Origin: Phytopythium helicoides
Lineage: Eukaryota; Oomycota; Peronosporomycetes; Pythiales; Pythiaceae
Reading direction: 5' to 3'
Assembly: GCA_024867545.1 (NCBI GenBank)
Contig: JANFNE010000041.1
Span: 62,001-126,000, forward strand
DNA length: 64,000 nt
The notes under the pieces are model-generated. The model ran no database searches. It was not told where the DNA came from and worked only from the letters and a program-made list of their open reading frames with translations. A program made the translations under genes and the position numbers. Position 1 is the first letter of the stretch, and every line of letters begins with the position of its first letter. Positions 1,540 through 48,328 of this stretch are shown here, piece by piece.

Positions 1540-1550
1540 TGAAGTGATCC
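1540..1550 (-). promoter_or_regulatory. GGATCACTTCA element of the type A gene
   Basis: TGAAGTGATCC on the plus strand, about 100 bp upstream of the ATG at 1441. It matches the element in front of all other type A-E genes. Confidence 0.65.
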
Positions 1551-3419
1551 CCCCCGTCGGACACACACTTTGATTTGATTACAGTATACTATACACATTA
1601 CAAGTACGAGTCGCGCGTGGCGGGTCAAATATCTTGAAATTTGTATAACACGATCCTATTCGAGCTGGGCCAAGTGTCGTAATCGCCGTCAACCCTGCAC
1701 ATACGTTTTGATTTTTCACTTGGAGTTTGTATACCAGTACGATTACGCGGCTCGCAACACCATCGTGTCAAAATCATGTTTTTTGTGTCGGAGGTTAGAA
1801 ATTCGCAAGAGGTGGCGCACATATTTATTGTGTACGCCACATGATTAGTTGAAAGACAAAAGTTGGTAGTCGTCAACGGACAGCAACAACGAACGCATGC
1901 AACCTCCGATGACTCGACAGTTTGGCCAGACCATGCAGGATCAACACAATACTCGAGTTGGGATCGTGCTCGAACGAACGCGCGAAACAAACTGCTGGAT
2001 TGAAGCGTCGTCGGCTTCTACGTTGGTGGGGAAAATTCCTGTACAAACCAGAGGCGCAGACTTCGGCCGCAAGAACGTTTGGGGGTATAGGGTAGGTACT
2101 ATTGATCCATTGATCTTGCTGGACTATAGCATTGCTACAGCTTCTAATCCATCGATCGTCATTGCTCATTCCGAGCGTTAACAGTAAAATGATGACGATG
2201 AGCAGCAGTCCGACGGTTTACAATTGTAAGAATTGGAAGGTGATGACATGTGAATGACTTCTCTATTGACCGCGTGCCAGACGCGTTTCGGCCCCCGCCA
2301 GGGCCTCGTCAGTGGCTTCGCCAATCTAGAAGTGAGAACCTCGTGCTCAGGGCTCGCCCAACCAATCCTGCCTACTGCAACCTTCTAGAACGCTCCAAAG
2401 ATCTACCGCAGGATACCACTCTGGCGTCGACAAATGCACGTCGTGTACGACACATGACCTGAATTCCAACAACAATGGGTTTTGAGCTGCGACGATCCCG
2501 CACTTGGAGAGCTTTCAGGGCGAATGCAGCGTGCTCCCGCAGTCTTTCTGTCTAGAAAGACGACTGCGCAAGAGGAAGCACAGCGCGCAGCGCATCGACC
2601 GCCGCGTGCTCCCTCATCCGCTCTCGAACTCGTGCTCGTCATGAAGCCGCGCGTGGCTACCTTGACTTGGATACGTCGCGCTTGACACCCTTCTTGGCCG
2701 ATCACCCCTGCCGCTGGCATGACAGACTCCGATGTCGCCGCGGCGAAGGCCTTGGAAGGGTCTGGAGGCTGGATGCGTGGCCCTGGATCATGAGCCGGGA
2801 AGTGCGGCCGCTTGGACTCCATCTTGCAAAAGCACCATGCGAGTCGACTGCCGAGAGCGCAAGTTGAAGTCCTCCAGGTTTCATGACATCCCTCCCTTTT
2901 CACTTGCAAAATGAATTGAAAGTCAGGTGAACTCCATCCTCCTGCCTCATTCGTTCATGCGAGCAGCCAGGACTCGACACTTTGTTCCATGGAAGAACGG
3001 TCGCAAGCGGCAGAACGAAGATGCAAGACTTGCGAACGCATCCACCACGCAACTAATGAGCTCTCGGAAAGCCTTCAACGCGACCGAAGAATCCAGCAGC
3101 GTCTTTGAGTCGCCTAGGCAGTCTTCATGACGCTCGGTTCCTTGCTGGATTCCAGGCACTCCATGCTAATACGAAACAAGCGTGTCATACAGAGACTATC
3201 GCTTGCAGTCCACGTGCTAATGCCGTAAGATACGACGTTGGGAACCAAGGGATTAACGTGGTTCCTAGTGGCGATCAAACAATGTACTTATTGAGGTCGC
3301 CTAAGTTCGATGTTGTCAACCCAATGCATTCACATGTACCGAGTGAAATTCAGTCAATATCGAAAGCCCGAACTCGATGTCAGTGACAGGAACTCACAAC
3401 AGCTTTGTAGTCAGTCTCA
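1551..3419. other. no recognisable gene
   Basis: Only short ORFs on both strands, none with recognisable motifs or a paralogue elsewhere in the window. A 168-codon open frame at 2403-2909 (minus) is Arg/Ser/Ala/Cys-rich and unconvincing. Confidence 0.4.
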
Positions 3420-5555
3420 AGTTGTCTTCATCGTAGCTCACTACTCTGCAACTTAGTGAAACTGACTGCCAGACAGTGGCTTCCTACCACAGCCCAGCAT
3501 CCACTTGAACATACGACACTCTTGCAACCTCACGGCCGCCAGTGCCGTCGCCACTGAGACGCGCATGTTGGAGCCCAACATCACTCAACCCAACCACGAA
3601 TGGACGGCAATTGCACCACCGTTCCATGTGCCGTGGGGTTTTGTAAGTGACTGGAGAGCTCGGGAGAATGCTCCATGCGAGACGTACACTTTAAATGGGA
3701 TACCAAATACCCCCAAGGCCTTCTTCACTCAGTCCCAGCAAGATCATTCATCACCAACGATTTACTGGTAGAATCCCATATACTCTATACTGAGAAACCC
3801 AACACGTCTAACGCGGCTTCTTTCTCGAGAACAGACTCACCGTTCAGATAGGAACACTCACAATAACCCAAACAGTCCACCACACGAACAGAGCTTCATA
3901 GAGTCATCCCACCAGATCTGGCACCAAAATACCCACATACAACCACAGGACAAACTTGACTGGAGAGTGAAGGCGCATATCAGGTGTGCCTTGGCATCAT
4001 CTCCAAACATCATTAGCGAAGAAAATAAATAAATAAATAAACTCACCCACCAGTCGTCAAGTTTTGCGTCTCGTTAATCGTCAAAAACACGAGCCGCAGT
4101 GTCCGAGCAGTGCAGCCACCCTCACATCCAGAACAAGGACGCCACGATCGCTTCTCGAAGGTCCGACAACGCAATCCACACGTTGCAAGTCCGTCGAGGA
4201 AGTAATCGATGAACGCCCAACATTTCACTGTCTCCCTGAGCCTCGTGGATGTCGTGGATGGCGCCGCCAATAACAGTACTAGTATTGTTTGAAGAAAGAA
4301 ACTTTTGGTGCGGTCTGAGAATGTCCTCTTCCGGTATGTTGAAATTTGTTTATCGTCTCGGGACTCGTTTGTCCTCCACTTGTCGATCTATGATCGCAGT
4401 GAAATACATGGTTGAACGGATTTTGAAGACACATCAAGGAGATGGCGCTGCGCAAGGCCGATTCGAAGTGAACAAACATAATCAAGGAAGTATGATAGAC
4501 CCTTGCTCTCCGAAGGCGCGTGCTCACTCGAAGCGGAATCGGTCCAACATGCTGGGACCTGGTGCACGGATCTTTGTTGCTGGGATATACCCTTTTCGAA
4601 GTAGACACATCACTGCGAATCAGCGAGCGAACCGTAGCCAAGAGTGTTCGATCAGAACTGACCAGGAGAGCCGCACAATCCTCACCCGAAGGAAGAGTAT
4701 GCGGGGATTGCAATCCAAACTAGCATCAACAATAGACATCAAGACACCAATACGTGTCTACGCGAAGAATCTTGTTTGCCAGCACATTCCGTCCCTTCGC
4801 ACAGACCGACTCATGGCTGCATCCGTTGCTTCCGGTGATTCGCGGGAAGGTGAAACATCGACTTGCTCGACGCAGTGTGTGCGCTCGATCGATCGGTCAT
4901 GATAAGGTTGGGAGTTGTTGGATGTTTCTGGGTGACCAGTGGTCGACATAACTCGGAGCTCTATCGATATCTTCGTACGAAAGAATCTGCTACTCACGGT
5001 ATTCACAATAGAGTCAGGAGTACCACCAGCTCCTTTCTTGTGAAGCATTTCGCCATTTCGCCATTTCACGCTACCCGAATCGTTCAGGTTGGCACGTTTG
5101 TACACCGTCCTGCCAGCAGATGTGAACGGACCCGAGCTGGAGGTCTCACTGACACATCCAGTAACCTGTCGTGCTCGCACTAAACCCGCTTCAAGTCGTT
5201 CAGGAAAGGTATTGCCTCGAATGTTGCTTCCTCGGATTTACGTCGCTATCTGGATCCTTCCTTGGTCATCCTCTGTGTTCTCGAAACATCTTCTGCATCT
5301 GAAATTGGTTGACACGCACATTGCGCTATAGCCGAGTTGGATTCCACGAATTGCGAGCACTCGCCGTCTAGCGTGTGCCTAGCGTGAATCTGTCGTATTG
5401 ATCGCATTGGCCACCACCACAGCGACGCGACAAGACGAGTGACAGCGCGAGCACAGCAAGCTCTACAGTAGAACACGCCTGTGAGAGCGTTTGTTTCATT
5501 CACTTATTTGTCTCGGTTGCCTTCGAACGCGGTTGGTTGGTCGGTCGGTCAGTCG
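3420..5555 (+). repeat. 2.1 kb direct repeat, copy 1
   Basis: Nearly identical, base for base over long stretches, to 11101-13237 in the same orientation. It carries no convincing coding sequence. It holds an AAAT microsatellite (about 4022-4041) and ends at a GGTC/GGTT-rich stretch. No terminal inverted repeats or target duplication are obvious. It is part of a wider duplication that includes the next bZIP gene downstream. Confidence 0.85.
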
Positions 5556-6785
5556 GTTGGATAGTATGTGATGCGATGTGGTTAGATCTCGTCTGCACGG
5601 AATGGATGATACCGCGAAAAAAATGTCAGCATCGAAGTCTTCGATATCATGACCATATCGTGAAAAGTGCTCCGCTGATCGCCGATGGGTGATTGCTGTA
5701 CTGCATAGACTGTGAGGTGGCCTCACGTACAGTACAGTACATTGTCCGTCTCTACACGTGTGCAGAGTGTGGTGGCGACAGGAAGGGCAACGAGTCCTCT
5801 ACAGTAGCGCAGTCAGTCTGCGCCTCGACCCAGCTCCTGGATATTCTATCCTGCTTGATGGTGATGCTGTCGTACAGTACAGTACTTCACCATGGAGATT
5901 GGGTTGAAGGAGCTCGCCGCATTGAACAGTTCGTGAGGTGCCGTGCTCTCGAGGATCACGGAATCGCGCACGGCCACAGCTGTATTCAGTATCAGAATAA
6001 TGGAGTATTGTTGCATCATGCCTCGGTGTGCCGTCGACAATCACTACTCTCTGCTGTCGAGAACCGCGTGTGTGAGCAGTGCTCACTTATAAACAGTGGG
6101 TCTCTAGTAGTGACTCTACAGTATGATTATATGATAGAGTAGTTGCGCGCATCGACATCGAGCTGAGTCGAGTTTGGCGAGCAAATGAATGCATAGAGAG
6201 CGAATGGCTCCAGCGCTCACTTCGCACGCTCCTGTTGGACTCTGAGGAGAGAGCCGATAAACCGATCCTTTCGAGAATGTCGACTATACATGCGCCGACC
6301 TGGCCATGTACACTTTGGTGCCGTGCCGATGCGCTGTTTGCGAGCCTCGTGATCAAGAGCGCAGAGACCGGCCTGCTACTGATGATACCCCCCTTGATCT
6401 GTCACCGTGCGGCATACGGTACAGTTCGATACGCGCCATGCTGGGTCTCAGCCAGAATTCCACCCTGAGGACTCGTGACGAGAGAGGGGATAAGCGTCTG
6501 CTACAGTGTCTGTGTGTCAATCAGCTCTCGGTCGCTGGCGTGCGAGGAAATTCACGCTGGACGACGTCGCTCGGTCGACCACTGCAGTGATTGCCTGTGA
6601 ACTGTCAGCGATACATGTATGGCTCGGCGTGATGGAGACTCTTCGGAATCCATCTTCGTGTCTCCCGGATAACTGTAGCTCCGCATAGAATGAGACGAAA
6701 ACGATCGTAGCAATAGTTGTTGTTCGTGTTGTTGCAATGAAACTTATAGAGCGAGTGAATACAGTAATGCGCATGAGCGAAGCCC
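5556..6785. other. diverged spacer of the direct duplication
   Basis: Only parts match the corresponding spacer 13238-13817, for example around 6050-6200 and 6675-6785. There are several TACAGTACAGTA-like short repeats and no recognisable gene. Confidence 0.5.
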
Positions 6786-7955
6786 TCAGCATGAAGGCGC
6801 GATGAGCCCTTCCGCCGTAAGACACGAGCCGTCCAGCACACGAGCCGCGTCAGCGAGAGATCCCAACACGCGCTGCATCGCAGGCACAACGTCCAGCTGC
6901 GTCTGGATCCGACGCACTCGCCCGCTCATGGGAGCGCACTCGAACAGAATCATACACTTCATATCGATCGGCTGTCCGCACAGCTTCCATGCGAGGTTGG
7001 CGTCGCTGCTGTGGTCCTCGTTCGCCGCAGACCCTCGCGACAGGAGGTGCGGGAACAACCCGCGAACCGTAGAGTCCGACATGGTCGCACACACTCGCAC
7101 AGTCGCCGCGATCGTGAACGTGGACGTCTCCGTCGTCTCGATGCGATCCAGCTTGAACTCCAGTTCATCAAAGGACTGCGTCCAAAACACCCACTGGTTC
7201 GCCAGTGCCTCGACGCTGTGTGTGCCGTCGCCACTACCGATCACTTCCGCTTCGTCTGCGATTGACGATCGCAAAAACTCGAGCTGCTCCTGACCGACCT
7301 CGGTCTGCATCATGAGCTCCCACCTCGGTGCTGATCTTGCATCCTGTTGAGACGCCGAGGCTGTCGCCGAAGACCCTTGGCTCTTCCGAGTCGACAGGAT
7401 ACTCGCTCCGTGGCGGAACAGACGAAAATACTCGGCCACGATGGTCCACGGCGTCTGTTTCGCGCACGGGGCGCTCGTCAGTCGCACACGCTTCGCCTCC
7501 AGACCAGCCGCCTCTTCTCGTAGACGCACGACGGACGCCTCGAGGTCCATACGCAGCATCCGTTGCTTGTTGCGGTACCGTGCCTGGTTGGCGCGGCATT
7601 GCTCTCTGCGGCGCTCGGTCTTGGCGCGGATGCGCTTCCGCCGCTCGTCTAGATGCGACGCTAACGTCGAGTCGCTTGGCATCGACGAGTCACTCGCCTG
7701 TTGGTGTTGAGTGTGGATGTATGAGCGAGCGAGACCCTGGCTTGCGCTCAGGGCCATGTCTGCGAGCGGCTGCAGCGCGTCTACGGCTGATGCCGGGAAG
7801 GAGGCGTAAGGCTTTAGCGAGCTAGCAGTCCTCTCTGGGAACCTCGGGGCACTTCGCTGGTTCGAAGGCTGCACGAATGCATCGGCACCTGACGCTCGTA
7901 GTTTGACGCTCTGCACGAAGCCATCGCCGAGCTTCCTGTCCGTCCACTTGAGCAT
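6786..7955 (-). CDS. type B Cys-bZIP transcription factor (copy 1)
   Basis: Predicted 389-residue nuclear DNA-binding protein. The start is the Met of MLKWTDRKLGDGF. The open frame extends 98 codons further upstream, but only from this Met does it align with types B' and E. Residues 1-30 hold the conserved LGDGFVQSVKLRASG segment, and 40-105 is low-complexity. The basic region is about 105-132 (KRIRAKTERRREQCRANQ) with Cys120 at the usual Asn position and the invariant Arg eight residues later. The zipper is 133-160 with leucines every seven residues. Residues 165-389 form a C-terminal domain with FRLFRHG, NQWVFWTQSF, STVRGLFPHLLS, LCGQPIDMKC and VLGSLADAARVLDGS. The function of that domain is unknown, and a ligand-binding or dimerisation role is only a guess. 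No introns are needed. Confidence 0.9.
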   Translation of the reverse strand: MLKWTDRKLGDGFVQSVKLRASGADAFVQPSNQRSAPRFPERTASSLKPYASFPASAVDALQPLADMALSASQGLARSYIHTQHQQASDSSMPSDSTLASHLDERRKRIRAKTERRREQCRANQARYRNKQRMLRMDLEASVVRLREEAAGLEAKRVRLTSAPCAKQTPWTIVAEYFRLFRHGASILSTRKSQGSSATASASQQDARSAPRWELMMQTEVGQEQLEFLRSSIADEAEVIGSGDGTHSVEALANQWVFWTQSFDELEFKLDRIETTETSTFTIAATVRVCATMSDSTVRGLFPHLLSRGSAANEDHSSDANLAWKLCGQPIDMKCMILFECAPMSGRVRRIQTQLDVVPAMQRVLGSLADAARVLDGSCLTAEGLIAPSC

Positions 7956-8055
7956 TTTGATCTTGGTCGAGGGGGTTGCGGTCGGTCTGGTCCGTTGTGC
8001 TACTGTCGCTGTCAGGAACCGTCGGCTTCCGATCACTCGGATTTGCGTGGAAAAG

Positions 8056-8067
8056 TGAAGTGATACC
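8056..8067 (-). promoter_or_regulatory. TGAAGTGATACC element of type B copy 1
   Basis: Lies about 100 bp upstream of the ATG at 7955 and is a one-base variant of TGAAGTGATCC. A facing GATCACTCGG half-site is at 8031-8040, and another TTGATCAC is near 8234. Confidence 0.65.
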
Positions 8068-13817: not shown

Positions 13818-14987
13818 TCAGCATGAAGGCACGATGAGCCCTTCCGCCGTAAGACACGAACCGTCCAGCACACGAGCCGCGTCAGCGAGAGACCCCAGCA
13901 CGCGCTGCATCGCAGCCACAACGTCCAGCTGCGTCTGGATCCGACGCACTCGCCCGCTCACGGGAGCGCACTCGAACAGAATCATACACTTCATGTCGAT
14001 CGGCTGTCCGCAAAGCTTCCACGCGAGGTTGGTGTCGCTGCTGTGGTCCTCGTTTGTTGCGGACCCTCGCGACAGGAGGTGCGGGAACAACCCGCGAACC
14101 GTAGAATCCGACATGGTCGCACACACGCGCAGAGTCGCCGCGATCGTGAACGTGGACGTCTCCGTCGTCTCGATGCGATCCAGCTTGAACTCCAGTTCGT
14201 CAAAGGACTGCGTCCAAAACACCCACTGGTTTGCCAGTGCCTCGACGCTATGAGTGTCGTCGCCACTACCGATCACTACCGCTTCGTCTGCGATGGACGA
14301 GCGCAAAAACTCGAGCTGCTCCTGACCGACCTCGGTCTGCGTCATGAGCTCCCACCTCGGTGCTGATCTTGCATCCTGTTGAGACGCCGAGGCTGTCGCC
14401 GAAGACCCTTGACTCTTCCGAGTCGACAGGATACTCGCTCCGTGGCGGAACAGACGAAAATACTCGGCCACGATGGTCCACGGCGTCTGTTTCGCGCATG
14501 GGGCGCTCGTCAGTCGCACACGCTTCGCCTCCAGACCAGCCGCCTCTTCTCGTAGACGCACGACGGACGCCTCGAGGTCCATACGCAGCATCCGTTGCTT
14601 GTTGCGGTACCGCGCCTGGTTGGCGCGGCATTGCTCTCTGCGGCGCTCAGTCTTGGCGCGGATGCGTTTCCGCCGCTCGTCCAGATGCGACGCCAACGTC
14701 GAGTCGCTTGGTATCGACGAGTCACTCGCCTGTTGGTGTTGAGTGTGGATGTATGAGCGAGCGAGACCCTGGCTTGCGCTCAGGGCCATGTCTGCGAGCG
14801 GCTGCAGCGCGTCTACGGCTGATGCCGGGAAGGAGGCGTAAGGCTTTAGCGAGCTAGCAGTCATCTCTGGGAACCTCGGGGCACTTCGCTGGTCTGACGG
14901 CTGCACAAACTCGTCGGCTCCTGACGCTCGCAGTTTGACGCTCTGCACGAAGCCGTCGCCGAGCTTCCTGGCAGTCCACTCGGGCAT
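13818..14987 (-). CDS. type B Cys-bZIP transcription factor (copy 2, B')
   Basis: 389 residues from the Met of MPEWTARKLGDGF. It is almost identical to the copy at 6786-7955, with the same length and no gaps. The zipper and basic region (Cys120) are unchanged. Substitutions are mostly in the first 45 residues and in the C-terminal domain (for example VVPAMQ to VVAAMQ, LIAPSC to LIVPSC). Both copies look functional, which suggests a recent duplication or gene conversion. The open frame extends 87 codons further upstream without similarity to other copies and is probably 5' leader. Confidence 0.9.
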   Translation of the reverse strand: MPEWTARKLGDGFVQSVKLRASGADEFVQPSDQRSAPRFPEMTASSLKPYASFPASAVDALQPLADMALSASQGLARSYIHTQHQQASDSSIPSDSTLASHLDERRKRIRAKTERRREQCRANQARYRNKQRMLRMDLEASVVRLREEAAGLEAKRVRLTSAPCAKQTPWTIVAEYFRLFRHGASILSTRKSQGSSATASASQQDARSAPRWELMTQTEVGQEQLEFLRSSIADEAVVIGSGDDTHSVEALANQWVFWTQSFDELEFKLDRIETTETSTFTIAATLRVCATMSDSTVRGLFPHLLSRGSATNEDHSSDTNLAWKLCGQPIDMKCMILFECAPVSGRVRRIQTQLDVVAAMQRVLGSLADAARVLDGSCLTAEGLIVPSC

Positions 14988-15071: not shown

Positions 15072-15083
15072 TGAAGTGATACC
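15072..15083 (-). promoter_or_regulatory. TGAAGTGATACC element of type B'
   Basis: Same variant as at 8056-8067, about 85 bp upstream of the ATG at 14987. TTGATCAC lies further upstream near 15241. Confidence 0.65.
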
Positions 15084-18234: not shown

Positions 18235-18267
18235 TGAAGTGATCCAAGCGTGGTCGGGATCACTCGA
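18235..18267 (-). promoter_or_regulatory. paired GATCAC elements of type C
   Basis: TGAAGTGATCC (18235-18245) and a facing GGGATCACTCG (from about 18256) form an inverted pair. The first lies about 63 bp upstream of the ATG at 18172. Confidence 0.65.
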
Positions 18268-20606: not shown

Positions 20607-20700
20607 TCCACCGGAGTCAAACGAGTGTACTTTAGAGGGATCAAGTCACTCGTGAGCTTGGGCCGATCACGAAATGAGTGCGTCCGACTTCTTGATCCCG

Positions 20701-20711
20701 TGAAGTGATCC
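20701..20711 (-). promoter_or_regulatory. GGATCACTTCA element of type D
   Basis: TGAAGTGATCC on the plus strand, 95 bp upstream of the ATG at 20606. Further GATC-containing half-sites lie between it and the gene (CCGATCACGAAATG near 20663, TTGATCCC near 20692). Confidence 0.7.
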
Positions 20712-20754
20712 CGCTTACTCGAGGCAGTGGCTCATACATCGCTCGTGATCAAAT

Positions 20755-21385: not shown

Positions 21386-21423
21386 GGATCACTTCACTTC
21401 CTTAAAACCGACCGAGTGATCCG
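21386..21423 (+). promoter_or_regulatory. paired GATCAC elements of type E
   Basis: GGATCACTTCA (21386-21396) is followed by a facing GAGTGATCC (from about 21414), forming an inverted pair about 80-107 bp upstream of the ATG at 21503. Confidence 0.7.
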
Positions 21424-24293: not shown

Positions 24294-24509
24294 TTGATCA
24301 CTCGCGCTGAAGGATCCAAGTTGTTCACGGACCCGAAAATCAAGCTCTGCCCCGTGATTAGCGCTTCAAGGGCTCTTTATGACGCAATCGCGATCAAATT
24401 GAGAGCTCGAGCGGGCCTCCTCGCTCTCCTCATTCGATCATTCGACGCGTGGGCCATGTCCGCAACTGATCACGTTTATCGTGACCACCTCACCTTAGAA
24501 ATCGGGCCG

Positions 24510-25864: not shown

Positions 25865-26560
25865 TCACTTTACTTCGGGTTTCGAGCTCAGCAACTCAGC
25901 TCGCCGACGCTCCAGCCGCCGGATCGTCGCTTTGAGCTGCTCGACGTTCCGCTCGAGTTCTTGCTCTCGAGCTCGCTGCTTTTCACGGTACCGCGCCTGG
26001 TTGACACGGCACTGCTGCAGCCTGCGCTCCGTCTTGACGCGCGGCTTGGGTTTCTTGGCAGCTGTCGTTGTCGACGCGGTCAGCTCACTCAGCTCGATGC
26101 CTCGCTCCGCCGCCTCCATCTTGAGCTGCTTCTGCTTGGCGCGGTACCGTGCCTGGTTGATGCGGCACTGCTCTCGTCGGCGCTCGGTCTTTTTCCGCTC
26201 ACGCTTTCGCTTCTTCGAAGGAGCATCCTTGGCGTTCAAGATCCTGTCCGGGAGCTTGATCTCCTTGCAGTGCGTCGGCGCATCGAGCGTCGGCGCTTTT
26301 GACGACGCCGACGTTGGCGGTGGCGTCGAAGGCGGGCAGTGGGCGTTGAACTCATCGTGCTGAGGACTGGACGGCGCCTCGCTCATCCACGCCTGCGAGT
26401 CAACGTCCTCCTGATCGCATGGATGTGCAGAATGTGGCTTGGGCGGCCAGAAGCGAGGAAACACGAGCGGCTGATCCCCCGCTGGGGGTTCGTCATCGTC
26501 GACCAGTCGGCCGAGCGTGAAGCGGCGAGTGACGTCGGCGAGCAGCAGCAGCGATGCCAT
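25865..26560 (-). CDS. bZIP protein with two Cys-type basic regions and one zipper
   Basis: 231 residues from the Met of MASLLLLADVTRRF; the frame is open 99 codons further upstream. The first basic region is near 117-146 (KKTERRREQCRINQARYRAK, Cys132). No zipper follows it, only MEAAERGIELSELTA and a short linker. The second basic region (170-197, KTERRLQQCRVNQARYREK, Cys184) runs into a good zipper with four leucines at seven-residue spacing (ELERNVEQLKATIRRL and onward). The protein ends at SSKPEVK, without the C-terminal domain of its neighbours. The two basic regions look like an internal duplication. It could bind two sites, or act as a partner or inhibitor of the large factors; both are inference. 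Confidence 0.85.
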   Translation of the reverse strand: MASLLLLADVTRRFTLGRLVDDDEPPAGDQPLVFPRFWPPKPHSAHPCDQEDVDSQAWMSEAPSSPQHDEFNAHCPPSTPPPTSASSKAPTLDAPTHCKEIKLPDRILNAKDAPSKKRKRERKKTERRREQCRINQARYRAKQKQLKMEAAERGIELSELTASTTTAAKKPKPRVKTERRLQQCRVNQARYREKQRAREQELERNVEQLKATIRRLERRRAELLSSKPEVK

Positions 26561-32961: not shown

Positions 32962-32998
32962 GGATCACTCGGTCGGTTTTAAGGAAATGAAGTGATCC
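32962..32998 (-). promoter_or_regulatory. paired GATCAC elements of type E'
   Basis: GGATCACTCGG at about 32961 and TGAAGTGATCC at 32988-32998 mirror the pair in front of E. The latter is 107 bp upstream of the ATG. Confidence 0.7.
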
Positions 32999-33372
32999 GA
33001 GTTGGTGGCGGCGTGATTGTGGCGTCGATCAGGTTCATGTATAAATACACGGTCTCTATACCAAGATCCGGATATATCCATGGGATGGGAACTGATTTGT
33101 ATGTAATGCAGTTGGGAGAGATATACATTTGTCCGGATGAGCGACTCGATCGCGTAGTCCAAAAATGACATCAGTAAACGTGATCTCGCACACCACAAAT
33201 GACTCTCCTGTATAGAGTGGCGCGTCCTAATTGGCCAAAATACAGGCAGGAAGCCAAGTATACAGTGCGCAAGTCTCATTGTCTCTCCTGGGTCGTCATC
33301 AGCTTGGGCGACCGCTTACTCGCCAGCCGTTTGATCACGAGCGACACACGCCATATCCTCGCGTAAGCTCGT

Positions 33373-33383
33373 GGATCACTTCA
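33373..33383 (+). promoter_or_regulatory. GGATCACTTCA element of type D'
   Basis: 95 bp upstream of the ATG at 33478. GGGATCAAGG, CGTGATCGG and TTGATCCC follow before the gene, so GATC half-sites are dense here. Confidence 0.7.
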
Positions 33384-33477
33384 CGGGATCAAGGAGTCGG
33401 ACGCACTCATTTCGTGATCGGCCCAAGCTCACGCGTGACTTGATCCCTACACAGTACACTCGTTTGACTCCGGCGGA

Positions 33478-34659
33478 ATGGCGAGCTGGACCTCTGGCGC
33501 CTTCAGCGACCGCGTCATCGGCGTCGTGCAGGCGAGAGCCTCGGGAGCCGAGCGGTTCGTGGACCCCTCGCCTCGCGAGCCCACCGCATTCCGACCGAGT
33601 TTTCGCCGCGATCCCATCGAAGCAGCCAGGGCTGTCGCCGACTTGGGGACTCGTCCCAGAGTTTACGTTCACGACCGAGCCGCGGCACGGATGTCGCCGC
33701 TGACGCGAATGCCTGGACACGATGAAGAACCAAAGGCAGCCCTGGAGTCGCTGTCGCTCTTGACTACTGAGCCGAGGGTTGGATCCCCGACGGCGAGAGA
33801 GCAAGTCAAGGTGCCAAAGAAGAGAGTGCGTGTCAAGACAGAGAGGCGCAAGGAGCAGTGCCGCACCAATCAGGCGAGATACCGCAACAAGCAGCGGCTG
33901 CACCGCATCGAGCTCGAAAACACTGTTATCAAACTGCGAGAGGAAGTTAGCGAGCTTGATCAGCACTATCGATCGCTGTCGTACCGCGTCTGCTCCAGCC
34001 ATAACGTTTGGAGCGTTGTTGTCGAATACTTTCGACTCTTTCGACACGGCATTTCGATTTTTGCGGGTGTCGAAAGCCAGCCGACTCACAAGATGAATCG
34101 CCCGTTGGTTACTGAGTCGGCACCAGCCACACCCTCGTGGAATTCCCTCATTCGCACTTCACCCACCGGGCAATCGCAAGTCGAGTTCCTCAAAGCAGTC
34201 ATGGCTCCAGACCTCGAACTTGTCACTAGCGGGGATTACGGAGTTGATGCTCTCGTGGATCACTGGCTCCGATGGGTTCGCTGCTTCCAAGACTTCGAGT
34301 TGCAGCTCGATCGTATTGAACAGGCACCTGGGGTCGCAGATGCGGTGCTTGCGACCGCACGAATCAGCGCAACCATCACATCTGCCACTGTTCGCAAGGT
34401 ATTCGGACACCTTCTTGAGTCGGAGGACCAACAGCTAGACAACGCGCTTGCATGGCGCCTGTGCGGACAACGAATTGAGATCAAGTGCTCTGTGTGGTTT
34501 GAGTGCGACAGCCAGTCGAACCAGGTTCAGCGCCTTCGGTCTGAGGCCGCGCTCATCCCTGCCGTTCACCGACTCGTCGCGTCGCTGACGGACACCGCTC
34601 GAGTGCTCGATGGAGCGCTGATCACCTCTGGAGGGTTTCTCGTCGCAGAAGATGCTTGA
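33478..34659 (+). CDS. type D Cys-bZIP transcription factor (right arm, D')
   Basis: 393 residues beginning MASWTSGAFSDRVIGVVQ. Nearly identical to 19425-20606 from residue 60 to the end; almost all changes fall in the first 60 residues (for example FRPSFRRDP for FQPSLRRDP) and at the penultimate positions (VAEDA). This uneven pattern fits gene conversion of the 3' part. Cys128 and the zipper are unchanged. Confidence 0.9.
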   Translation: MASWTSGAFSDRVIGVVQARASGAERFVDPSPREPTAFRPSFRRDPIEAARAVADLGTRPRVYVHDRAAARMSPLTRMPGHDEEPKAALESLSLLTTEPRVGSPTAREQVKVPKKRVRVKTERRKEQCRTNQARYRNKQRLHRIELENTVIKLREEVSELDQHYRSLSYRVCSSHNVWSVVVEYFRLFRHGISIFAGVESQPTHKMNRPLVTESAPATPSWNSLIRTSPTGQSQVEFLKAVMAPDLELVTSGDYGVDALVDHWLRWVRCFQDFELQLDRIEQAPGVADAVLATARISATITSATVRKVFGHLLESEDQQLDNALAWRLCGQRIEIKCSVWFECDSQSNQVQRLRSEAALIPAVHRLVASLTDTARVLDGALITSGGFLVAEDA

Positions 34660-34920: not shown

Positions 34921-35819
34921 TGCTTCATGATTGAAACCACCAATTCGAGTGGGGAGGTTTCGAGCATTGTCAGTTTGCTCAGCGCACGCAACCCAGCCCA
35001 ACCTGGTGTACTCAAAATAGCTCTTAGCGCCAACCACCTCACCCTGAACTGCTGTTGCGCTCCTTTCGAATCCTCCAAACTGAGGTCGAGCTCCTTGGTT
35101 TCCGACAGCAACAGATGCTGTTAGCAGCAGCGACAATGGAGCACCTGGTTGCGAGACCTCGCAGCCTCTAAGGCGTCGATCCTGTGCCTCGGCGGGATCT
35201 TGAAAATGCGCGATCCTGGCGCACTGTTGACGCGACAGTGCATCAATCACGCACGCCACAGCTGCCGACGTGCTCAGCCACCCTCTGGCTACTCGTTCAC
35301 TCAACAAACCGCTAGACAAGGAGACTCTCTGGCATCGGAGCGGTCGGTGGTCCCATTCCGGCCAAGTGGAGGTCTTCGGACACAGGATCCCATCGACAGG
35401 TCGCTGGAGCAGAGAGCTCGAGTGCTGCTGACCTCAAGCGGACGCTTCCCACACAGCGAGAGCTGAGACCGAAACGAGCGGAGACCGCACCACTTTCCAG
35501 CGTCAACGTCAACTGTCGTCTTGTCGTGGGATGGTGACGCTCTCGGATGGCCTCGGATTTTTGGGTTTAGCGCGCCTTGGGACCAATGGTGACGGCAAGC
35601 CACGCAATGTACTGAAATCAAGCCAGTCTAGAACAGACCATCACTCCGTCGACTAGCGAGTAAGCGGCGTGTCGCGTAGATGACGTCCCCGCCTCGTGAT
35701 CCCCTACCCTACCGATTCTACACATACAAACAACAAGTCATTTTGCTCCTTGAGCCTTGTGCCCCACGCTTCACTTGCAGTTTGTATACCATTCAAACCA
35801 CCAGCTAACAAGCGGGCCG

Positions 35820-35849
35820 AGTGATCCCGACCACGCTTGGATCACTTCA
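35820..35849 (+). promoter_or_regulatory. paired GATCAC elements of type C'
   Basis: GAGTGATCC (about 35819-35827) and GGATCACTTCA (35839-35849) face each other across about 11 bp, an imperfect palindrome. The second is about 82 bp upstream of the ATG at 35931. Confidence 0.7.
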
Positions 35850-40990: not shown

Positions 40991-42512
40991 CCATTCGTTC
41001 ATCACCATGTATTGAAATTTCGAATCGCAAATCATTCGAATTGTTGCAACACTCTACTTGTTACACAGCCTCATACTAATTGATGTTGCCAACGAGTATT
41101 GTCAATATAAAATGTCACATCAGACGTGTCGTAGAACCACCGGCAACATTTGGAGCCCAGACAAGATCTATTTAGTCAATTTGGAGCGGAGAGAAATGCC
41201 ACTGTGAGTGTCTGCACGTAGCTTTCGTTGTCTCTTGACGCTGGTCAGAGATTCAGGGTAAATCCTTGGTTATCGATCGCCGATCCTTGATTGTTGAGCG
41301 TCGATCCTTGATCGCAGAGCCAAACGAGGAACAGCAACGCAGGGTACGCAATTGCCCAGACAAACCAGTGATGCAAGTGCCCAGAGAAAACCCTTCCAAT
41401 CAGAGATATGAGGTCGCAAAGCTGTGGTCCTTGGAGATTGAAGACCGTCTCGGCGCCGGGTCATGAAGCCGATGCCTCTTGCCTTTAACAAGTGTGCGCA
41501 CCAGCGGTGGGGGGTTTAGCCGCCGTCTAGCTACTTCGGATAGCTCTTGGCTCGACTTGAGCGGTAGAAAGAATATTCTGGACTGATTACCGAAGATATG
41601 CACACCTACTAGCTCTGACGTCATCCTTCTCTTGATATGGCAGCTTCTCCAGCCAGACAAATTAAGCAACATGGGCGTCTTCTTGCAGTTCGTCAACGTC
41701 CTCGCCAACGTGTGGGTGAAGGTAGTGTAGGCAAGTGAGTAGCTGATGGAAGATCCAAAATTGAATTGATTGATCCGAAAAACCGCTCTGACGGTCTCCG
41801 AGAACTAGCGCTTTAGACTACAGGGAAATCCTGACGCACTTGCCCAATGTTACGTTGGTGGGGTGGTGTTGATTCTCAATTCACACTACTCCAGCAACTT
41901 AAGTACCCATCATCAGCCAATCAGCAAACAGCATTGGAAGTACCATGGGCGGGGCCCGTGCCATCCGCCCAATCCGCGTGCAGGCCCCATCCCTAGCACG
42001 CGCGCCGCAGCAATGGACTTGCTGTGAGCAGGCACCTGCTCGTAGCCAATCGTTGCAAGGCGGTGCACTTCAACACGCCAGTCCCAATGTCAACAACTTT
42101 TCCTACAATCAGTCGATCGACACTACCACCACTTCGACATCTGTTGTCCATCCTCGTGAATCTGCTCCTGAAATTAAGGATCCAACTTTGAAACCAGAGA
42201 TCCGAGCCAGGGATCAAAGATCCGGCTTCTAGGATCAGGGATTAGAGATCTGGTGCCGAGGAACAGGAATCCAGTTGTCGTGACCAGAGATCTCGCTTCC
42301 CAGGTCAGGCATCCCGCGTCTCACTCTTCTCGGCTGTATTTAGATTCCCTATCGCCCCGTGGATTTTCTTTGACCTGTAATACCACAAAAAAAACGTGTA
42401 AAGCACATGTAGACAACCGAGCCGCCGCAAAGGTTTACAAAGTGCTTCCAAGAGATGTAAGGGGAGGGTATATATATACGTTCCTACAGCTGATTTGAAT
42501 TACACTACCACT
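40991..42512. other. no recognisable gene; short GATC-rich imperfect repeats
   Basis: 41268-41320 holds two units of CGATCCTTGAT with spacer. 42175-42320 holds several imperfect AGAGATCC/GGATC units. No ORF with recognisable motifs is present. Confidence 0.4.
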
Positions 42513-43016
42513 TCATATTCTCTCCGCAATGTAGATATCATAATCGTTCTACATCTCAAGAGCCACAGCATCACGATAAGCTTTCATTGTGGTCTCGTCG
42601 TGCTCGGTGACGTGGTCATCATCACATGAAATGTCGTCATTACTATCATTTTCTACACAAACCATTATTCACTGTCAAGCGGCCCTAGCTTCTCGTTCGC
42701 TATCCGAACGAAATTGTAGATGATGGCGGCTGCCATGACGTCCTTGGGTTTGAAATGGATTTGAGTGCTTGTCTTTTAAGATCGGGAACTTTTTCTTGAT
42801 GACACCAAACATGCGCTCAATCACATTGCTAAGTGAAGAGTGAAGTAGATTGAACAGTTCCTCTTTTTTGTGGATGGATGCTTGCCAATTGCCACTCTTT
42901 AAGTGATACCGCACACCACGATAAGTCGTCGAAGTGTAGCCCCAGCCAGCTTCACTCAGGTAGTTTTGCCAGGATAAAGTGGTATTTCCTTCAATACTGC
43001 ATCCTGTAGTACTCAA
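42513..43016 (-). pseudogene. HARBI1-like transposase C-terminal fragment
   Basis: Matches the C-terminal half of the intact transposase at 54636-56134: TTYRGVRYHLK, KKEELFNLLHSSLSNVIERM (with the catalytic Glu), FGVIKKKFPIL. After a frameshift near 42735-42770 it continues VMAAAIIYNFVRIANEKLGPLDSE. A later, differently framed stretch ends DYDIYIAERI at 42513. It has at least one frameshift and in-frame stops. The N-terminal half is missing. Confidence 0.75.
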
Positions 43017-43111
43017 CCGTCATGGACTGATCCTTCCCAGTCAGCTAGCACATACTCTCTCCGGACCAATTTAGTTGTCCGGTCAACACAAATAGGTCGA
43101 AACAACGCTTT

Positions 43112-45330
43112 TTACACGGTACAATCGAAATCTGTCAAAAATTGGTACGCTTGGCCAGTCAAGTACGCCATCTCCACGCATGCCAAGTTCTTGACCAGAC
43201 AACCCTGCTTGCGGAGCTTCGCCTTAGACATGTGAGGTCGCTTGTACGTATTCGCTCCGAACGTCTCAATGATGCACAGCATGACCTGTTGAAGAGAGAG
43301 AAACGTGTCGTCCAGCTTAGACGGGGTGAGCTCGTTGAATGCCCGCTTGGTGAACGCCACCAGCTCATCAACGGTAGACGGCGCTAATTCATGCTGCAGG
43401 GTCTGGATTGCGCAGAAGAACCCCAGGTCTAGGACGTTTAGGTCGGGGCTGTTGGGCGGTTGCTTCTGCACACGTAGATTCCACCCTCCCGCCACGCATG
43501 CTTCATTGACGGCCGCGTCATGGTCGAGGATGTGGGCGCCATCTCCTTCCTGCTGGATGACGAGGTTGCGATCTCGCATTGACGCGGGCACCCGCTGCTT
43601 GATGGCCGGGATAACGCACTCGATCAACATCCTGCGGTACTCATTGCGGTCAACGGAGACCAGCTTCAACTCTAGCGTCCCGGCTGGCCGGTTCTTGGAC
43701 GTGCGCTGTACCTCTTCGACCACCACAAAAGGCCACATGCCGATCTTCCCGTCGAATACTACCACGCCATCCTCGATGACAGGTCGCATGATGGCCGCGA
43801 GAAACATTACCTTGGTTATGAACCGCTTGGATTTCACACTGCGGACCGGTGGGGCCTCACCGGATGCGAGGTAGTACGTCTGGTCGGCACGCGTTAGGTA
43901 AAACCACTTCTCATCGATGTGAATGCGCGTCTCTAGCTCACAGAACTGCAAGTTCGACGGGTCAACGAATGACAAACAGTAGGACAAGCGCTCTACCTTG
44001 TTCTTCTCCGTCAAGAATGGCTTGACGCTGTTGGAATGGCGCACGATCTCGCCTTCAGCACGCGCCCTAGCCAGTGTAGTCTTTGGTACCTTCAGAGCGG
44101 CAGCAAGGCTGCGCATATTCTATCGGCGCCGAAATGGGACTAAGCGAATCCGCTCATCAATATTGCGATCAATTTTCTTGCGGCCACAACGAGATCTAGC
44201 CGAGGCCGACAGGTCTGGCAGCTTGCCGCTGTGATGATGCGGCGCCCTCCATGACGGGTCGATAGGCGGATTTAGGGGAGTAGTCTCACCCTTGGGCGAG
44301 TAATCTCAGCCCTCCGCAGCGAGCTTCGGTCTTGATCTCCCTGGGGAGACGCTTGACTTGGCCCGCTTGGTCAGTACCGGAGCGTTGTGATCCCCGTTGG
44401 TTCCGTCCGGGGGACCAGGAGCTCTAAACGCGCGCGTAGGAGCCGACGACCAGGCAGGCGACGGCGCTTCCTCTCTCTTCTCCTGAACAAACAAACGATA
44501 TTAGTACACACAATGGGCTCCGCTAACCTTTTCAGGCTAGGGAACCCGTCGGCAGATGAGTAATGACGCTGTGGGGCTCTGCTAAACCACCACAGCCGAA
44601 AACGCGGATGAAATTAGCCGAGGAGGCTCCGCGGGGACCTTCCTCAGACAGAATATGAAGTCGGACACCAATGCCAGACGTGTCGCCACACTCAAAGCGA
44701 CCGTCCAGCACTGGGCCGAGAAATATGGAACCAACCAGTAATGTACACGCCACTGCGTGACTTACCGATCGGGTGTTGGCCTTGGAGCAACGCGCGGTTG
44801 ACCTCCTCAAGCCCCAAAGAGGTTTCCCTCCCTGGAGAGCTTGTTCTTCCTTGCGCGCGATAGAGGGAGAAAGCGGAAGTCTGTATTGAAAGTCTTACTG
44901 TCTCTGCTACCTCTACTTTTTTATCTTTGCAGTTCTGGTGATAGAGGTCTGATAACGAACCCACGGGAAGCCAGTCAAGGAGGCCAGCCCGTCTTTGTTG
45001 AGCGGTGTGGCCCACACCAACTCTTCCCTGATCCCCAAAAAGGGAACAGGGGTACCTCTCTAGGGGTACTTCCCCCAGAGAGGTCTAAGGAGCTATATTT
45101 TATCCTAGAGAATGACTTCAATACTGAGGCCAAGTATGCGCGCGTCTCAAGGACGCTGAGGTGCCTCTGCAGGAGTGAATGCTCGGGCTGATTCTGCAGC
45201 GCTTCATCACACCGCTATGCTTGAGGCTCTCCACGCTCTTACGCCAGAGCTGCCCTGTTGTCTTCGCCGAGCAGTTGAATTTGGTGGCTGCTTGTAGCAA
45301 TGCCCCACGGGCAACTCCAAGTCAACAGCT
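43112..45330 (-). pseudogene. Tc1/mariner transposase, broken
   Basis: The main part (43112-44116, 334 codons) has MRSLAAALKVPKTTLARA (second helix-turn-helix), IHIDEKWFYLT (first catalytic Asp), VIQQEGDGAHI and PPNSPDLNVLDLGFF (third catalytic Asp). In the second motif a QQD is expected and QQE is found. Upstream the frame continues as GRKKIDRNIDERIRLVPF but is cut by an in-frame TAG. The N-terminal helix-turn-helix (ARGALLQAATKFNCSAKTTG) lies 0.9 kb away at about 45180-45310, preceded by another stop. An insertion therefore separates the two parts, and the gene is inactive. Confidence 0.75.
44260..45120. mobile_element. unidentified insertion inside the mariner element
   Basis: This stretch separates the N-terminal helix-turn-helix from the rest of the transposase. 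It has no coding motifs. A CCTCTCTAGGGGTACTTCCCCCAGAGAGG hairpin-like stretch begins near 45054. The ends and any target duplication were not resolved. Confidence 0.35.
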
Positions 45331-45637
45331 GTGGCAAGGAGTTATGCGACGATGCTGGTGCGCTCTTCGACCGAGAGATCGCCGTTCCGAGCACGTGTAG
45401 CCGCCATGACTTGAGTCCCAACAACGCGGATAATTCGGTTTTGGCGCCAAATCGGTATGGCCATGTTGTATTTCAAATGGGAGGGGTTGACTGTGATTGG
45501 CTATATTTGAATGTATACAACCAATCACAGGAATATAATCACATTAATGACCAACCACAATACGTTGTTGGAGAGGACAGCTTGTTCGGACCAAGCAAAA
45601 TCACGGAGGGGACAACTAAATTGGTCCGGAGGGCGTA

Positions 45638-46284
45638 GCAAAATACCTTGTCGAATGTGCACATTCTGTAAGACAAAGCCTTTGCGATTCCGAAATGATG
45701 CTATTTCGCTGCTCGGTACTGTGAGTTCCTGGTGACAATCAATGCAGACAAGAGCCAGTAGAGGTGATAAGAACCGTAAAATGAACTAGCCGATGGTTTA
45801 CCATCGAGCGCTCCAAAGCAAACGCGAAAGTATGGGTAAAAATTGCCTGAGGTACAAACATGCTGTGGTGTCTCGGTAGATGGGGGAGTGATGATTTAGT
45901 CCTTGATAGCCACTTCTGAACGGTCGCGATCGTCGTTTTCAACCTGTCATACTCAATGAGATTGCACTAAGCGTTACGAACAATCTCTTCTTTATTTGAG
46001 AGATATGCAAAATGAAATATCGTGGCCGAATGCACAGAATTTCAATTTCATAGGGAATTGAGAACTCTCGCAGAAATTGATTCCATGTAAAATCGGATAA
46101 GAAAATGTGTCGAACACCGCCCAAATCAATCCGGTGGCTTGTCTGATCCCGGTATTGTACCGGTTTCTATCAAAATAATCGGTTTCTGACGGCTCGAATG
46201 CTTATGGGATTCTCGTCGTAATTTTCGGTAACATATTCTATTCGAATTCGGACAAATACCAAGAAAGAAACATACGATATAAGT
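45638..46284. other. no recognisable gene
   Basis: AT-rich spacer between the mariner element and the third D-C copy. Only short frames. Confidence 0.4.
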
Positions 46285-46330
46285 TTTCGATCACGAGCAA
46301 CACACGAACCATCGCCTCGCGTAAGCGCGT

Positions 46331-46341
46331 GGATCACTTCA
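46331..46341 (+). promoter_or_regulatory. GGATCACTTCA element of type D''
   Basis: 94 bp upstream of the ATG at 46435. Confidence 0.7.
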
Positions 46342-46434
46342 CGAGATCAAGAAGTCGGACGCACTCATTTCGTGATCGGCCCAAGCTCACGCGTGACTTA
46401 TCCCTCCAGAGTACACTCGTTTGACTCCGGCGGA

Positions 46435-47631
46435 ATGGCGAACTGGACCTCTGGCGCCTTCAGCGACCGCGTCATCGGCGCCGTGCAGGCGAGGGCCTTG
46501 GGAGCCGAGCGGTTCGTGGACCCCTCGCCTCGCGAGCCCTCCGCGTTCCAACCAAGTCTTCGCCGCGATCCCATCGAAGCAGCCAGGGCTGTCGCCGACT
46601 TGGGGACTCGTCCCAGAGTTTACGTTCACGACCGAGCCGCGGCACGGATGTCGCCGCTGACGCGAATGCCTGGACACGATGAAGAACCAAAGGCAGCCCT
46701 GGAGTCGCTGTCGCTCTTGACTACTGAGCCGAGGGTTGGATCCCCGACGGCGAGAGAGCAAGTCAAGGTGCCAAAGAAGAGAGTGCGTGTCAAGACAGAG
46801 AGGCGCAAGGAGCAGTGCCGCACCAATCAGGCGAGATACCGCAACAAGCAGCGGCTGCACCGCATCGAGCTCGAAAACACTGTTATCAAACTGCGAGAGG
46901 AAGTTAGCGAGCTTGATCAGCACTATCAATCGCTGTCGAATCACGTCTGCTCCAGCCATAACATTTGGAGCGTTGTCGTCGAATACTTTCGACTCTTTCG
47001 ACACGGCATTTCGATTTTTGCTGGTGTCGAAAGCCAGCCGACTCACAAGATGAATCGCCCGTTGGTTACTGAGTCGGCACCAGCCACACCCTCGTGGAAT
47101 TCCCTCATTCGCACTTCACCCACCGGGCAATCGCAAGTCGAGTTCCTCAAAGCAGTCATGGCTCCAGACCTCGAACTTGTCACTAGCGGGGATTACGGAG
47201 TTGATGCTCTCGTGGATCACTGGCTCCGTTGGGTTCGCTGCTTCCAAGACTTCGAGTTGCAGCTCGATCGTATTGAACAGGCACCTGGGGTCGCAGATGC
47301 GGTGCTTGCGACCGCACGAATCAGCGCAACCATCACATCTGCCACTGTTCGCAAGGTATTCGGACACCTTCTTGAGTCGGAGGACCAACAGCTAGACAAC
47401 GAGCTTGCATGGCGCCTGTGCGGACAACGAATTGAGATCAAGTGCTCTGTGTGGTTTGAGTGCGACAGCCAGTCGAACCAGGTTCAGCGCCTTCGGTCTG
47501 AGGCCGCGCTCATCCCTGCCGTTCACCGACTCGTCGCGTCGCTGACGGACACCGCTCGAGTGCTCGATGGAGCGCTGATCACCTCTGGAGGGTTTCTCGC
47601 CGCAGAAGATGCTCGAAAGTTTAGAGCGTGA
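46435..47631 (+). CDS. type D Cys-bZIP transcription factor (third copy, D'')
   Basis: 398 residues from MANWTSGAFSDRVIG; an ATG at 46372 lies in the promoter and is rejected. The N-terminal part follows the left-arm copy (FQPSLRRDP), but GTRPRVY follows the right-arm copy, so it is a mosaic. A changed stop adds RKFRA after the usual EDA end. The zipper region differs slightly (YQSLSNHVCSSHNIW). Basic region with Cys128 intact. Confidence 0.9.
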   Translation: MANWTSGAFSDRVIGAVQARALGAERFVDPSPREPSAFQPSLRRDPIEAARAVADLGTRPRVYVHDRAAARMSPLTRMPGHDEEPKAALESLSLLTTEPRVGSPTAREQVKVPKKRVRVKTERRKEQCRTNQARYRNKQRLHRIELENTVIKLREEVSELDQHYQSLSNHVCSSHNIWSVVVEYFRLFRHGISIFAGVESQPTHKMNRPLVTESAPATPSWNSLIRTSPTGQSQVEFLKAVMAPDLELVTSGDYGVDALVDHWLRWVRCFQDFELQLDRIEQAPGVADAVLATARISATITSATVRKVFGHLLESEDQQLDNELAWRLCGQRIEIKCSVWFECDSQSNQVQRLRSEAALIPAVHRLVASLTDTARVLDGALITSGGFLAAEDARKFRA

Positions 47632-47816
47632 AGTGCGGCAAGGGTGCATAGTGCATTTGGTGCAAAATCTGAATCTTTTGAGTGGGTGAGAGAATTTGTA
47701 CGCTTCACTGCACGTCCAGTCGATCGGCATCAGCTGTGGCGACCCCGACCTGGAGATTCAGCGATCGACTGTGCGATCACGGATAGTTGGGAAACTGCGG
47801 AGCATCAGGTGATGCA

Positions 47817-47876
47817 AAGCACAAAGAGAAGTGCGACGCAAGCCAAGCGAGATACAGAAATAGGCAGCAAACGCAT
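47817..47876 (+). pseudogene. bZIP basic-region relic (third copy)
   Basis: Same KHKEKCDASQARYRNRQQTH relic as at 19164-19223 and 34861-34920, in the same place downstream of D. Confidence 0.65.
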
Positions 47877-48299
47877 TGCTTCGTGATTGAAACCACCAAT
47901 TCGCGTGTGGAAGCTGTGCCCATTGTCCGCGAGAGCAGAGAGCTCGAGTGCTCGGCTGACCTCGAGCGGACGCATCCTACATAGCGAGTGCCGAACCCGA
48001 ATCGAGTGGAGACCGCACCTAGTTCCAGCGTCAACGTCAACCGTCGTCTGGTTGTGGGATGGATAGACTCGGATTTGCGTGATAGTGTCACGGAGCATGC
48101 CGCGTTCCGTAATCGCATTTCAGGCTTCGATTAGCGAGTAAGCGGCGAGTCGCGTAGATGACGTCCCCGTCTCGTGATCCCCTACCCTACCGATTCTCTC
48201 CTTTACAAAACCCAAGTCATTCCGTTCCTTAAGCCTTGAGCCCCACGCTTGACTTGCGCAAAGTATACCATTCAAACCACCAGCTAACAAGCGGGTCGA

Positions 48300-48328
48300 G
48301 TGATCCCGACCACGCTTGGATCACTTCA
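48300..48328 (+). promoter_or_regulatory. paired GATCAC elements of type C''
   Basis: GAGTGATCC (from about 48298) and GGATCACTTCA (48318-48328) face each other as in C'. The second is 63 bp upstream of the ATG at 48391. Confidence 0.7.

Follow-up and report, generated by a model that had tools for sequence, protein, structure and literature searches.

This analysis concerns a 64,000-nucleotide stretch of the Phytopythium helicoides genome (assembly GCA_024867545.1, contig JANFNE010000041.1, here contig C37, positions 62001-126000 of 49 Mb), called the window throughout, and a short element that precedes a cluster of basic leucine zipper (bZIP) genes within it. The genes are sorted into types A to F and belong to the Cys-type class, in which a cysteine replaces the invariant asparagine of the basic region. 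The element, an 11-mer, stands before all 11 genes of types A to E, and the shorter word GATCAC that forms part of it recurs elsewhere in the same leaders and before type F genes. The features lie as follows, in window coordinates.

1540..1550, minus strand: GGATCACTTCA before the type A gene (ATG 1441)
8056..8066, minus strand: GTATCACTTCA before a type B gene (ATG taken at 7955)
8031..8036, plus strand: GATCAC (GATCACTCGG), opposed to the type B gene of ATG 7955
15072..15082, minus strand: GTATCACTTCA before a type B gene (ATG taken at 14987)
18235..18245, minus strand: GGATCACTTCA before a type D gene (ATG 18172)
18257..18267, plus strand: partner box GGATCACTCGA of this D leader, opposed
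20701..20711, minus strand: GGATCACTTCA before a type E gene (ATG 20606)
20745..20750, minus strand: distal GATCAC (TTTGATCACGAG) of this E leader
20665..20670, plus strand: GATCAC of this E leader, opposed to the gene, directly after a second Initiator match TCATTTC
21386..21396, plus strand: GGATCACTTCA before a type B gene (ATG 21503)
21413..21422, minus strand: partner box GGATCACTCG, opposed, B leader of ATG 21503
24296..24301, plus strand: GATCAC (TTTGATCACTCG) before a type F gene (ATG 24456)
32988..32998, minus strand: GGATCACTTCA before a type B gene (ATG 32881)
32962..32971, plus strand: partner box GGATCACTCG, opposed, B leader of ATG 32881
33373..33383, plus strand: GGATCACTTCA before a type E gene (ATG 33478)
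33333..33338, plus strand: distal GATCAC, E leader of ATG 33478
33414..33419, minus strand: opposed GATCAC after a second Initiator match TCATTTC, E leader of ATG 33478
35839..35849, plus strand: GGATCACTTCA before a type D gene (ATG 35931)
35818..35827, minus strand: partner box GGATCACTCG, opposed, D leader of ATG 35931
46331..46341, plus strand: GGATCACTTCA before a type E gene (ATG 46435)
46289..46294, plus strand: distal GATCAC, E leader of ATG 46435
46372..46377, minus strand: opposed GATCAC after a second Initiator match, E leader of ATG 46435
48318..48328, plus strand: GGATCACTTCA before a type D gene (ATG 48391)
48296..48306, minus strand: partner box GGATCACTCGA, opposed, D leader of ATG 48391
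60025..60030, minus strand: GATCACTCC, also an Initiator match, before a type F gene (ATG taken at 59890)
59901..59906, minus strand: GGGATCACTCGTG just 5' of a type F ATG, kept in four type F leaders
63494..63499, minus strand: GGGATCACTCGTG just 5' of a type F ATG (63483)
110..144, minus strand: two further exact copies of GGATCACTTCA (110-120 and 134-144)

The motif QCRxNQARYR is invariant in 10 window proteins and 18 aligned relatives. These proteins carry cysteine at the position of the invariant asparagine, arginine eight residues on and a continuous helix, which places them in the Cys-type (C-R) class of the Phytophthora sojae survey. Canonical bZIP profiles fail to recognize them: two of six scanned proteins match at all, both below the cut-off (16.5 bits for PF07716, cut-off 22.3; 15 bits for PF00170, cut-off 27.6). 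A database search with a type E protein returned 38 matches (7997 candidates scored) at up to 70% identity, those in Phytophthora, Plasmopara and Pythium being 26-39% identical. The predicted type E structure has one long bZIP helix, residues 122-174, with a predicted local distance difference test score (pLDDT) over 90 to about residue 160, for a mean pLDDT of 72 and a predicted template modeling score (pTM) of 0.56.

The C-terminal domain of type E (window 33478-34659 and relatives) is SnoaL/NTF2-like by predicted structure, with 5x7l as the best match (E 1.5e-6, template modeling score 0.66 by target). Folds of this kind often hold small ligands, so a ligand-sensing step is possible. The available text of the P. 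sojae bZIP survey describes no domains additional to the bZIP besides one PAS, and a literature search combining bZIP, NTF2-like and oomycete found no paper.

All 11 element positions listed by the first-pass annotation are confirmed. Nine are exact copies of GGATCACTTCA, starting at 1540, 18235, 20701, 21386, 32988, 33373, 35839, 46331 and 48318, and two, at 8056 and 15072, are GTATCACTTCA, which differs only in having T for G at the second base and had been termed an ACC variant. The same annotation described one orientation relative to the gene and a near-fixed distance of 63-107 bp. The orientation holds in 11/11 cases, and the gaps from element to ATG measure 62, 62, 81, 84, 93, 94, 94, 98, 100, 106 and 106 bp, where for 8056 and 15072 the ATG homologous to that of other type B genes was used in place of the first ATG of a longer open frame. 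The two further exact copies at 110 and 134 were absent from the earlier list and have no clear gene just downstream. When up to two mismatches are allowed, the window contains 34 matches to the 11-mer, compared with 19.5 expected, and none of 100 shuffles reached as many.

These 11 sites do not count as independent events, and that treatment was rejected. A mirrored duplication relates pieces of 16.2-22.8 kb to pieces of 31.6-37.9 kb, with part present again at 46.4-49.4 kb; over 16166-37937 its three main arm pairs agree to 94-98% and a fourth to 91%, and each side carries one D-E-B gene set. Grouping of the 300-bp leaders by plus-strand BLASTN, with no between-group match at E 1e-3, gives five groups for the 11 genes: A, B (6786/13818), B (21503/31757), D and E. 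The evidence within the window therefore amounts to five leader groups.

Across the 49-Mb assembly the exact 11-mer occurs 48 times, compared with nine for the reversed word. Among the 37 copies outside the window, two, on contig C44, lie upstream of Cys-bZIP genes, with element starts 99 and 92 bp from the ATG; in the remaining 35 cases, the two longest of the frames that begin within 500 bp show no Cys-bZIP signature, and 15 of these copies fall inside open frames of at least 120 aa. Together with the nine exact copies of the window, 11 of the 48 are thus placed alike upstream of Cys-bZIP genes, with 73-117 bp separating the start of the element from the ATG.

A genome-wide pattern search for basic regions of the Cys type gives 47 matches, and its reversed control none. 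These regions yield 39 usable promoters in 21 non-alignable groups, after eight were dropped: 26011 is the second region of one open reading frame (ORF); 58391, L062, L064 and L069 lack an ATG in frame; and C44:82 and two regions on C58 lie at contig ends. Each open frame was taken to begin at its first Met, apart from six whose ATG was assigned by homology. For comparison, 59 background promoters were used (60 minus L030, which lies inside a bZIP region). They are crude, being taken from the first Met of ORFs of at least 250 aa, mostly at loci fetched for holding the 11-mer; that choice inflates GATCAC in the background and makes the enrichment reported here conservative.

The right part of the element resembles a known core-promoter motif. 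The oomycete Initiator (INR), YCAYTYY, peaks in frequency 50-100 nt from the start codon and favors the sense strand (Roy et al. 2013, PMC3599244). TCACTTC, present in all 11 elements, is an exact match in the sense orientation in each case and at the expected distance from the ATG. The D leaders, those of the 21503/31757 B group and the 6786 B leader have a second, overlapping match (e.g., TCACTTCATTCT). With one promoter taken from each of the 21 Cys-bZIP groups, the region from -150 to -30 contains 15 sense and three opposed Initiator matches, and a match at -170 to -30 is found in 12/21 groups compared with 11/59 background promoters. The INR+FPR supramotif is not a feature of these leaders as a set. 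The flanking promoter region (FPR) motif MWTTTNC starts 3-20 nt after the Initiator start in 2/11 leaders (the 7598-type B and the 32881-type B, where it overlaps the end of the element), and after the Initiator in 2/21 groups compared with 1/59 background promoters.

The right part of the element is very probably an Initiator, and an Initiator alone would account for the fixed orientation and near-fixed distance to the ATG. The oomycete Initiator as given in the available text of PMC3599244 has no GGA or GA prefix, whereas here GATCAC extends the motif upstream and is found in the opposed orientation and at a distance from the start as well. The Initiator match and the opposed GATCAC boxes led to rejection of the 11-mer as a single binding site: it consists of two overlapping things, an Initiator match and a separate GATCAC box.

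GATCAC/GTGATC is the most enriched 6-mer averaged over draws from the 21 groups, with 28 sites in 300 bp compared with 5.8 expected. The best-word score averages 7.5 over 10 draws, and the maxima are 5.5 for 200 random genomic sets and 5.9 for 200 sets of other promoters. GATCAC lies within 300 bp in 16/21 groups compared with 15/59 background promoters (Fisher 6e-5). Two or more copies are found in 8/21 groups compared with 3/59, and 30 of the 39 single promoters have at least one. Both strands are enriched (16.5 sense and 11.8 opposed sites, compared with 2.9 expected for each). The box also precedes genes without the 11-mer, namely type F and genes on C20 and C47. Enrichment near other Cys-bZIP genes, which the first-pass annotation had proposed to look for genome-wide, is seen on contigs C20, C47 and C54, whose leaders are unalignable to those of the window: 8/10 groups carry the box, with 11.3 sites compared with 2.0 (genome) or 3.1 (promoters) expected.

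Overlap of box and Initiator is seen in the leaders of types A, D and E, in one of the B groups, in one F leader and before a C20 gene. The Initiator-fused form GATCACTYY, sense and at -170 to -40, occurs in 6/21 groups and 0/59 background promoters, and it is favored at that place (6/13 sense sites at -170 to -40 compared with 2/22 other sites, p 0.02).

The shape of the box emerges from its variants. GATTAC is the most enriched of the 18 one-letter neighbors of GATCAC (9.8 compared with 1.4, p 1.9e-6; the next has 8.6e-4) and is found in 5/10 groups on C20, C47 and C54 compared with 4/59 background promoters. GTGATTAC is present in 2.1 groups compared with 0.11 expected in 400 bp. The two enriched 6-mers give the consensus (GT)GA.TYAC, and GATTAC together with GTGATTAC suggests half-sites GTGA and GTAA placed back to back. 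GATYAC is very probably a functional promoter box of these genes.

The box is also rarer before other bZIP-type genes. A sequence pattern for Asn-type bZIPs was useless (253 matches compared with 218 reversed), and the Asn-type set was taken instead from PF00170, with 15 matches and six upstream stretches fetched, of which one has GATCAC within 300 bp. No GATCAC lies within 300 bp of two C61 genes (CRVSQRRYR and CRMSQRRYR) or of the C2 and C13 relatives outside the searched class, and the C12 relative outside the class has one possible GATCAC, which may be coding. The total is 2/11 (six Asn-type, two C61, and one each from C12, C13 and C2, the C12 and C13 pairs being paralogs) compared with 16/21 Cys-bZIP groups (p 0.0025), on small numbers and with paralogs grouped by hand.

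Within leader groups, the box changes less than its surroundings. In the seven groups with a box in the aligned 170 bp, 77/86 box columns are conserved, compared with 773/1182 other columns, pooled. Each type E leader has three boxes, the outermost of which, GATCACGAG, is an island amid diverged sequence. CGGTATCACTTCAC is an identical block in the two otherwise diverged B leaders of 8056 and 15072, and loci L059 and L060 share the 16-bp block TTGTGATCACGTGCCC in leaders that are otherwise about half identical. The first-pass annotation had held the element to be more than duplicated background, and this conservation bears it out for the GATCAC core, as do the enrichment across non-alignable Cys-bZIP promoters, including contigs outside the window, and the rarity of the box at other promoters. 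That the boxes have no function and merely survive from a single ancestral promoter copied with the genes is highly improbable: same-type A-E leaders are copies in the mirrored duplication, with one event per leader group, whereas between groups the leaders are unalignable while the box stays, moves and flips, and within groups its columns change less and TTGTGATCACGTGCCC is kept in a half-identical leader.

Boxes may also face each other. Pairs of facing GGATCACT within 30 bp, the arrangement covered by the search, occur at two converging and four diverging loci in 49 Mb, all of them Cys-bZIP promoters, and reversed controls give none. These six loci are two B and four D, i.e., two leader groups. 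Looser facing pairs, GATCACT...AGTGATC, occur at 11 converging loci compared with one for the reversed control. Three are Cys-bZIP promoters, two (L019 and L028) are paralogous copies at an apparent exon end before a splice donor, and of the remaining six only one is clearly before a gene. At that locus (L088, C47:72600-73700), the facing GATCACT pair lies ~190-220 bp upstream of a gene for Old Yellow Enzyme (PF00724), next to a further copy. The contig, C47, holds nine Cys-type basic regions. The Old Yellow Enzyme gene is a possible non-bZIP target of the box.

Class-wide enrichment, conservation and rarity elsewhere would be expected if members of the family regulated themselves or one another. 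We put at roughly 0.45 the probability that the composite of Initiator and GATYAC box is read by bZIPs of the family, in auto- or cross-regulation and perhaps as repression. The first-pass annotation suggested that the element could be the binding site of the Cys-bZIPs themselves; family-wide enrichment fits this suggestion, and what falls away is the 11-mer as a single site, which gives place to an Initiator and the shorter GATYAC box.

In the mechanism proposed, the composite would span the transcription start site of Cys-bZIP genes, with the Initiator part (TCACTTC) setting orientation and distance to the ATG. The overlapping regulatory box, (GT)GA.TYAC, is present in one to four copies, on both strands, in the 300 bp upstream of most CRxNQARYR-type genes. 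It appears to sit on the transcription start site, whose position is placed by the Initiator match. The likeliest reader would be a family bZIP that regulates its own promoter and those of its sister genes; that the protein bound to the box is a Cys-bZIP, or a dimer in which at least one partner is a Cys-bZIP, is a tentative proposal at somewhat short of even odds. A bound dimer would cover the start site, and the partner and distal boxes would strengthen binding. Given the overlap of box and Initiator, the simplest action is negative feedback, yet the sign of the effect is the more doubtful part, and repression is put forward with clear reserve. A bolder and rather unlikely version has Cys-bZIPs bind (GT)GA.TYAC as a zero-spacer half-site pair and, by occluding the Initiator, silence themselves and their sister genes, in a feedback that the cysteine and the SnoaL/NTF2-like pocket would make oxidation- or ligand-sensitive.

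Several observations weigh against regulation by the family. The box is missing within 300 bp in at least half of the members of 5/21 groups, and the type F group conserves only 10/18 box columns. Other words are enriched in 300 bp of the Cys-bZIP promoters (ACGCGA/TCGCGT, CGCTAATC/GATTAGCG and GTATACC), and ACGCGA scored best in one of four printed draws, so that GATCAC is not the sole shared promoter word. The expected symmetry is poor: a textbook bZIP site is a palindrome, whereas T precedes GATCAC in 14/42 listed boxes, the left half-site GTGA is complete in few, the full palindrome GTGATCAC is found in one group and most sites keep one full half. GGATCACTCG was rejected as a genome-wide promoter mark, since, of its 163 copies (compared with 50 reversed; 100 listed), 4/5 of those sampled lie inside open frames of at least 500 codons. 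Finally, a protein-binding-microarray survey of P. infestans in 2024 obtained a motif for only one of seven Cys-type bZIPs (PMC11267843), which may mean that these proteins bind DNA weakly or not at all alone; in the available text, its authors left open whether Cys types bind DNA alone.

The foremost alternative is that the element is a core-promoter element only, an Initiator whose local GGA extension persists through duplication, which recruits the general transcription machinery and is read by no gene-specific factor. It accounts well for TCACTTC, which fits YCAYTYY and the 50-100 nt peak, and for the sense bias typical of an Initiator (15 to 3, above). The B leaders at 8056 and 15072 also favor it, since they keep the GTATCACTTCA block, i.e., the Initiator without GATCAC, and GA precedes 3/5 background TCACTYY, though at loci fetched for holding the 11-mer. 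It does not account for the enrichment of opposed GATCAC and of GATCAC at non-Initiator places, nor for GA preceding TCACTYY in 7/14 cases in Cys-bZIP groups compared with 8/97 in background DNA with the 11-mer masked. On balance, this explanation is unlikely, though a serious contender.

A different factor family, such as an Asn-type bZIP, Myb or helix-turn-helix (HTH) protein, could instead drive the Cys-bZIP genes with no self-regulation. The boxes are mostly asymmetric, as this would allow, and the facing pair before the Old Yellow Enzyme gene could mean that the box serves a wider program. The palindrome GTAATTAC is reported for two P. infestans bZIPs, PITG_16038 and PITG_02323 (PMC11267843), whose residue type, Asn or Cys, is not stated in the available text of that paper. 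On the other side, the box tracks the CRxNQARYR class (16/21 groups compared with 2/11 other bZIP-type genes), and the P. infestans Myb and HTH targets in the available text are CCGTTAC, ACTG, TAACA and GTTAAC, not GATYAC, in a comparison that covers Myb and HTH and not HSF, C2H2, homeodomain or bHLH. A driver from another family is rather improbable.

Related systems share some of these features. bZIP autoregulation is a general arrangement in which factor genes carry the family site in their own promoters; here, the basic region is of a non-canonical kind and the candidate site would lie across the Initiator. GTAATTAC consists of two abutting 4-bp half-sites, GTAA.TTAC, and is akin to the enriched GATTAC and GTGATTAC; it differs in that the main word here is GATCAC, with the left half-site mostly incomplete, and GTAATTAC itself has no occurrence in the Cys-bZIP promoters. 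Oomycete bZIPs with Cys for Asn form a large class that is mostly restricted to oomycetes (PMC4046829). The Phytophthora Cys types Pibzp1, PITG_11668 and P. sojae PsBZPc share the basic-region cysteine, expansion by duplication and occurrence in clusters, whereas no shared promoter box is reported for them in the available text of PMC4046829, PMC7273347 and PMC11267843. Literature searches (GATCAC with Phytophthora; bZIP autoregulation with Phytophthora; GTGATCAC) found nothing on this box, and neither GATCAC nor GTGATC appears in the main text of either of two papers on promoter motifs of P. infestans (PMC3597505 and PMC3520976).

For the DNA target of Cys-bZIPs, a question that goes back to at least 2013, the box offers a specific, short and testable candidate, GTGATYAC, with GGATCACTTCA as its natural start-site form. 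The overlap of box and Initiator leads to a specific prediction of feedback. More generally, an apparent fixed-distance motif can be an Initiator overlaid by a regulatory box, which matters for motif hunts where TATA is undetected.

Some neighboring features of the window may be noted. The type A gene, 518-1441 (minus strand), ends early and its C-terminal homology continues in a separate match at about 316-636, so that the gene is frameshifted, spliced or mis-assembled. At 25865-26560 (minus strand), a 231-aa frame contains two consecutive Cys-type basic regions, CRINQARYR and CRVNQARYR, with no GATCAC within 400 bp upstream. Transposon-like frames lie beside bZIP copies: a piece of a Plant_tran transposase (PF04827) at 56332-57168 (minus strand) and a NAM-associated frame (PF14303) at 51770-52720 (plus strand).

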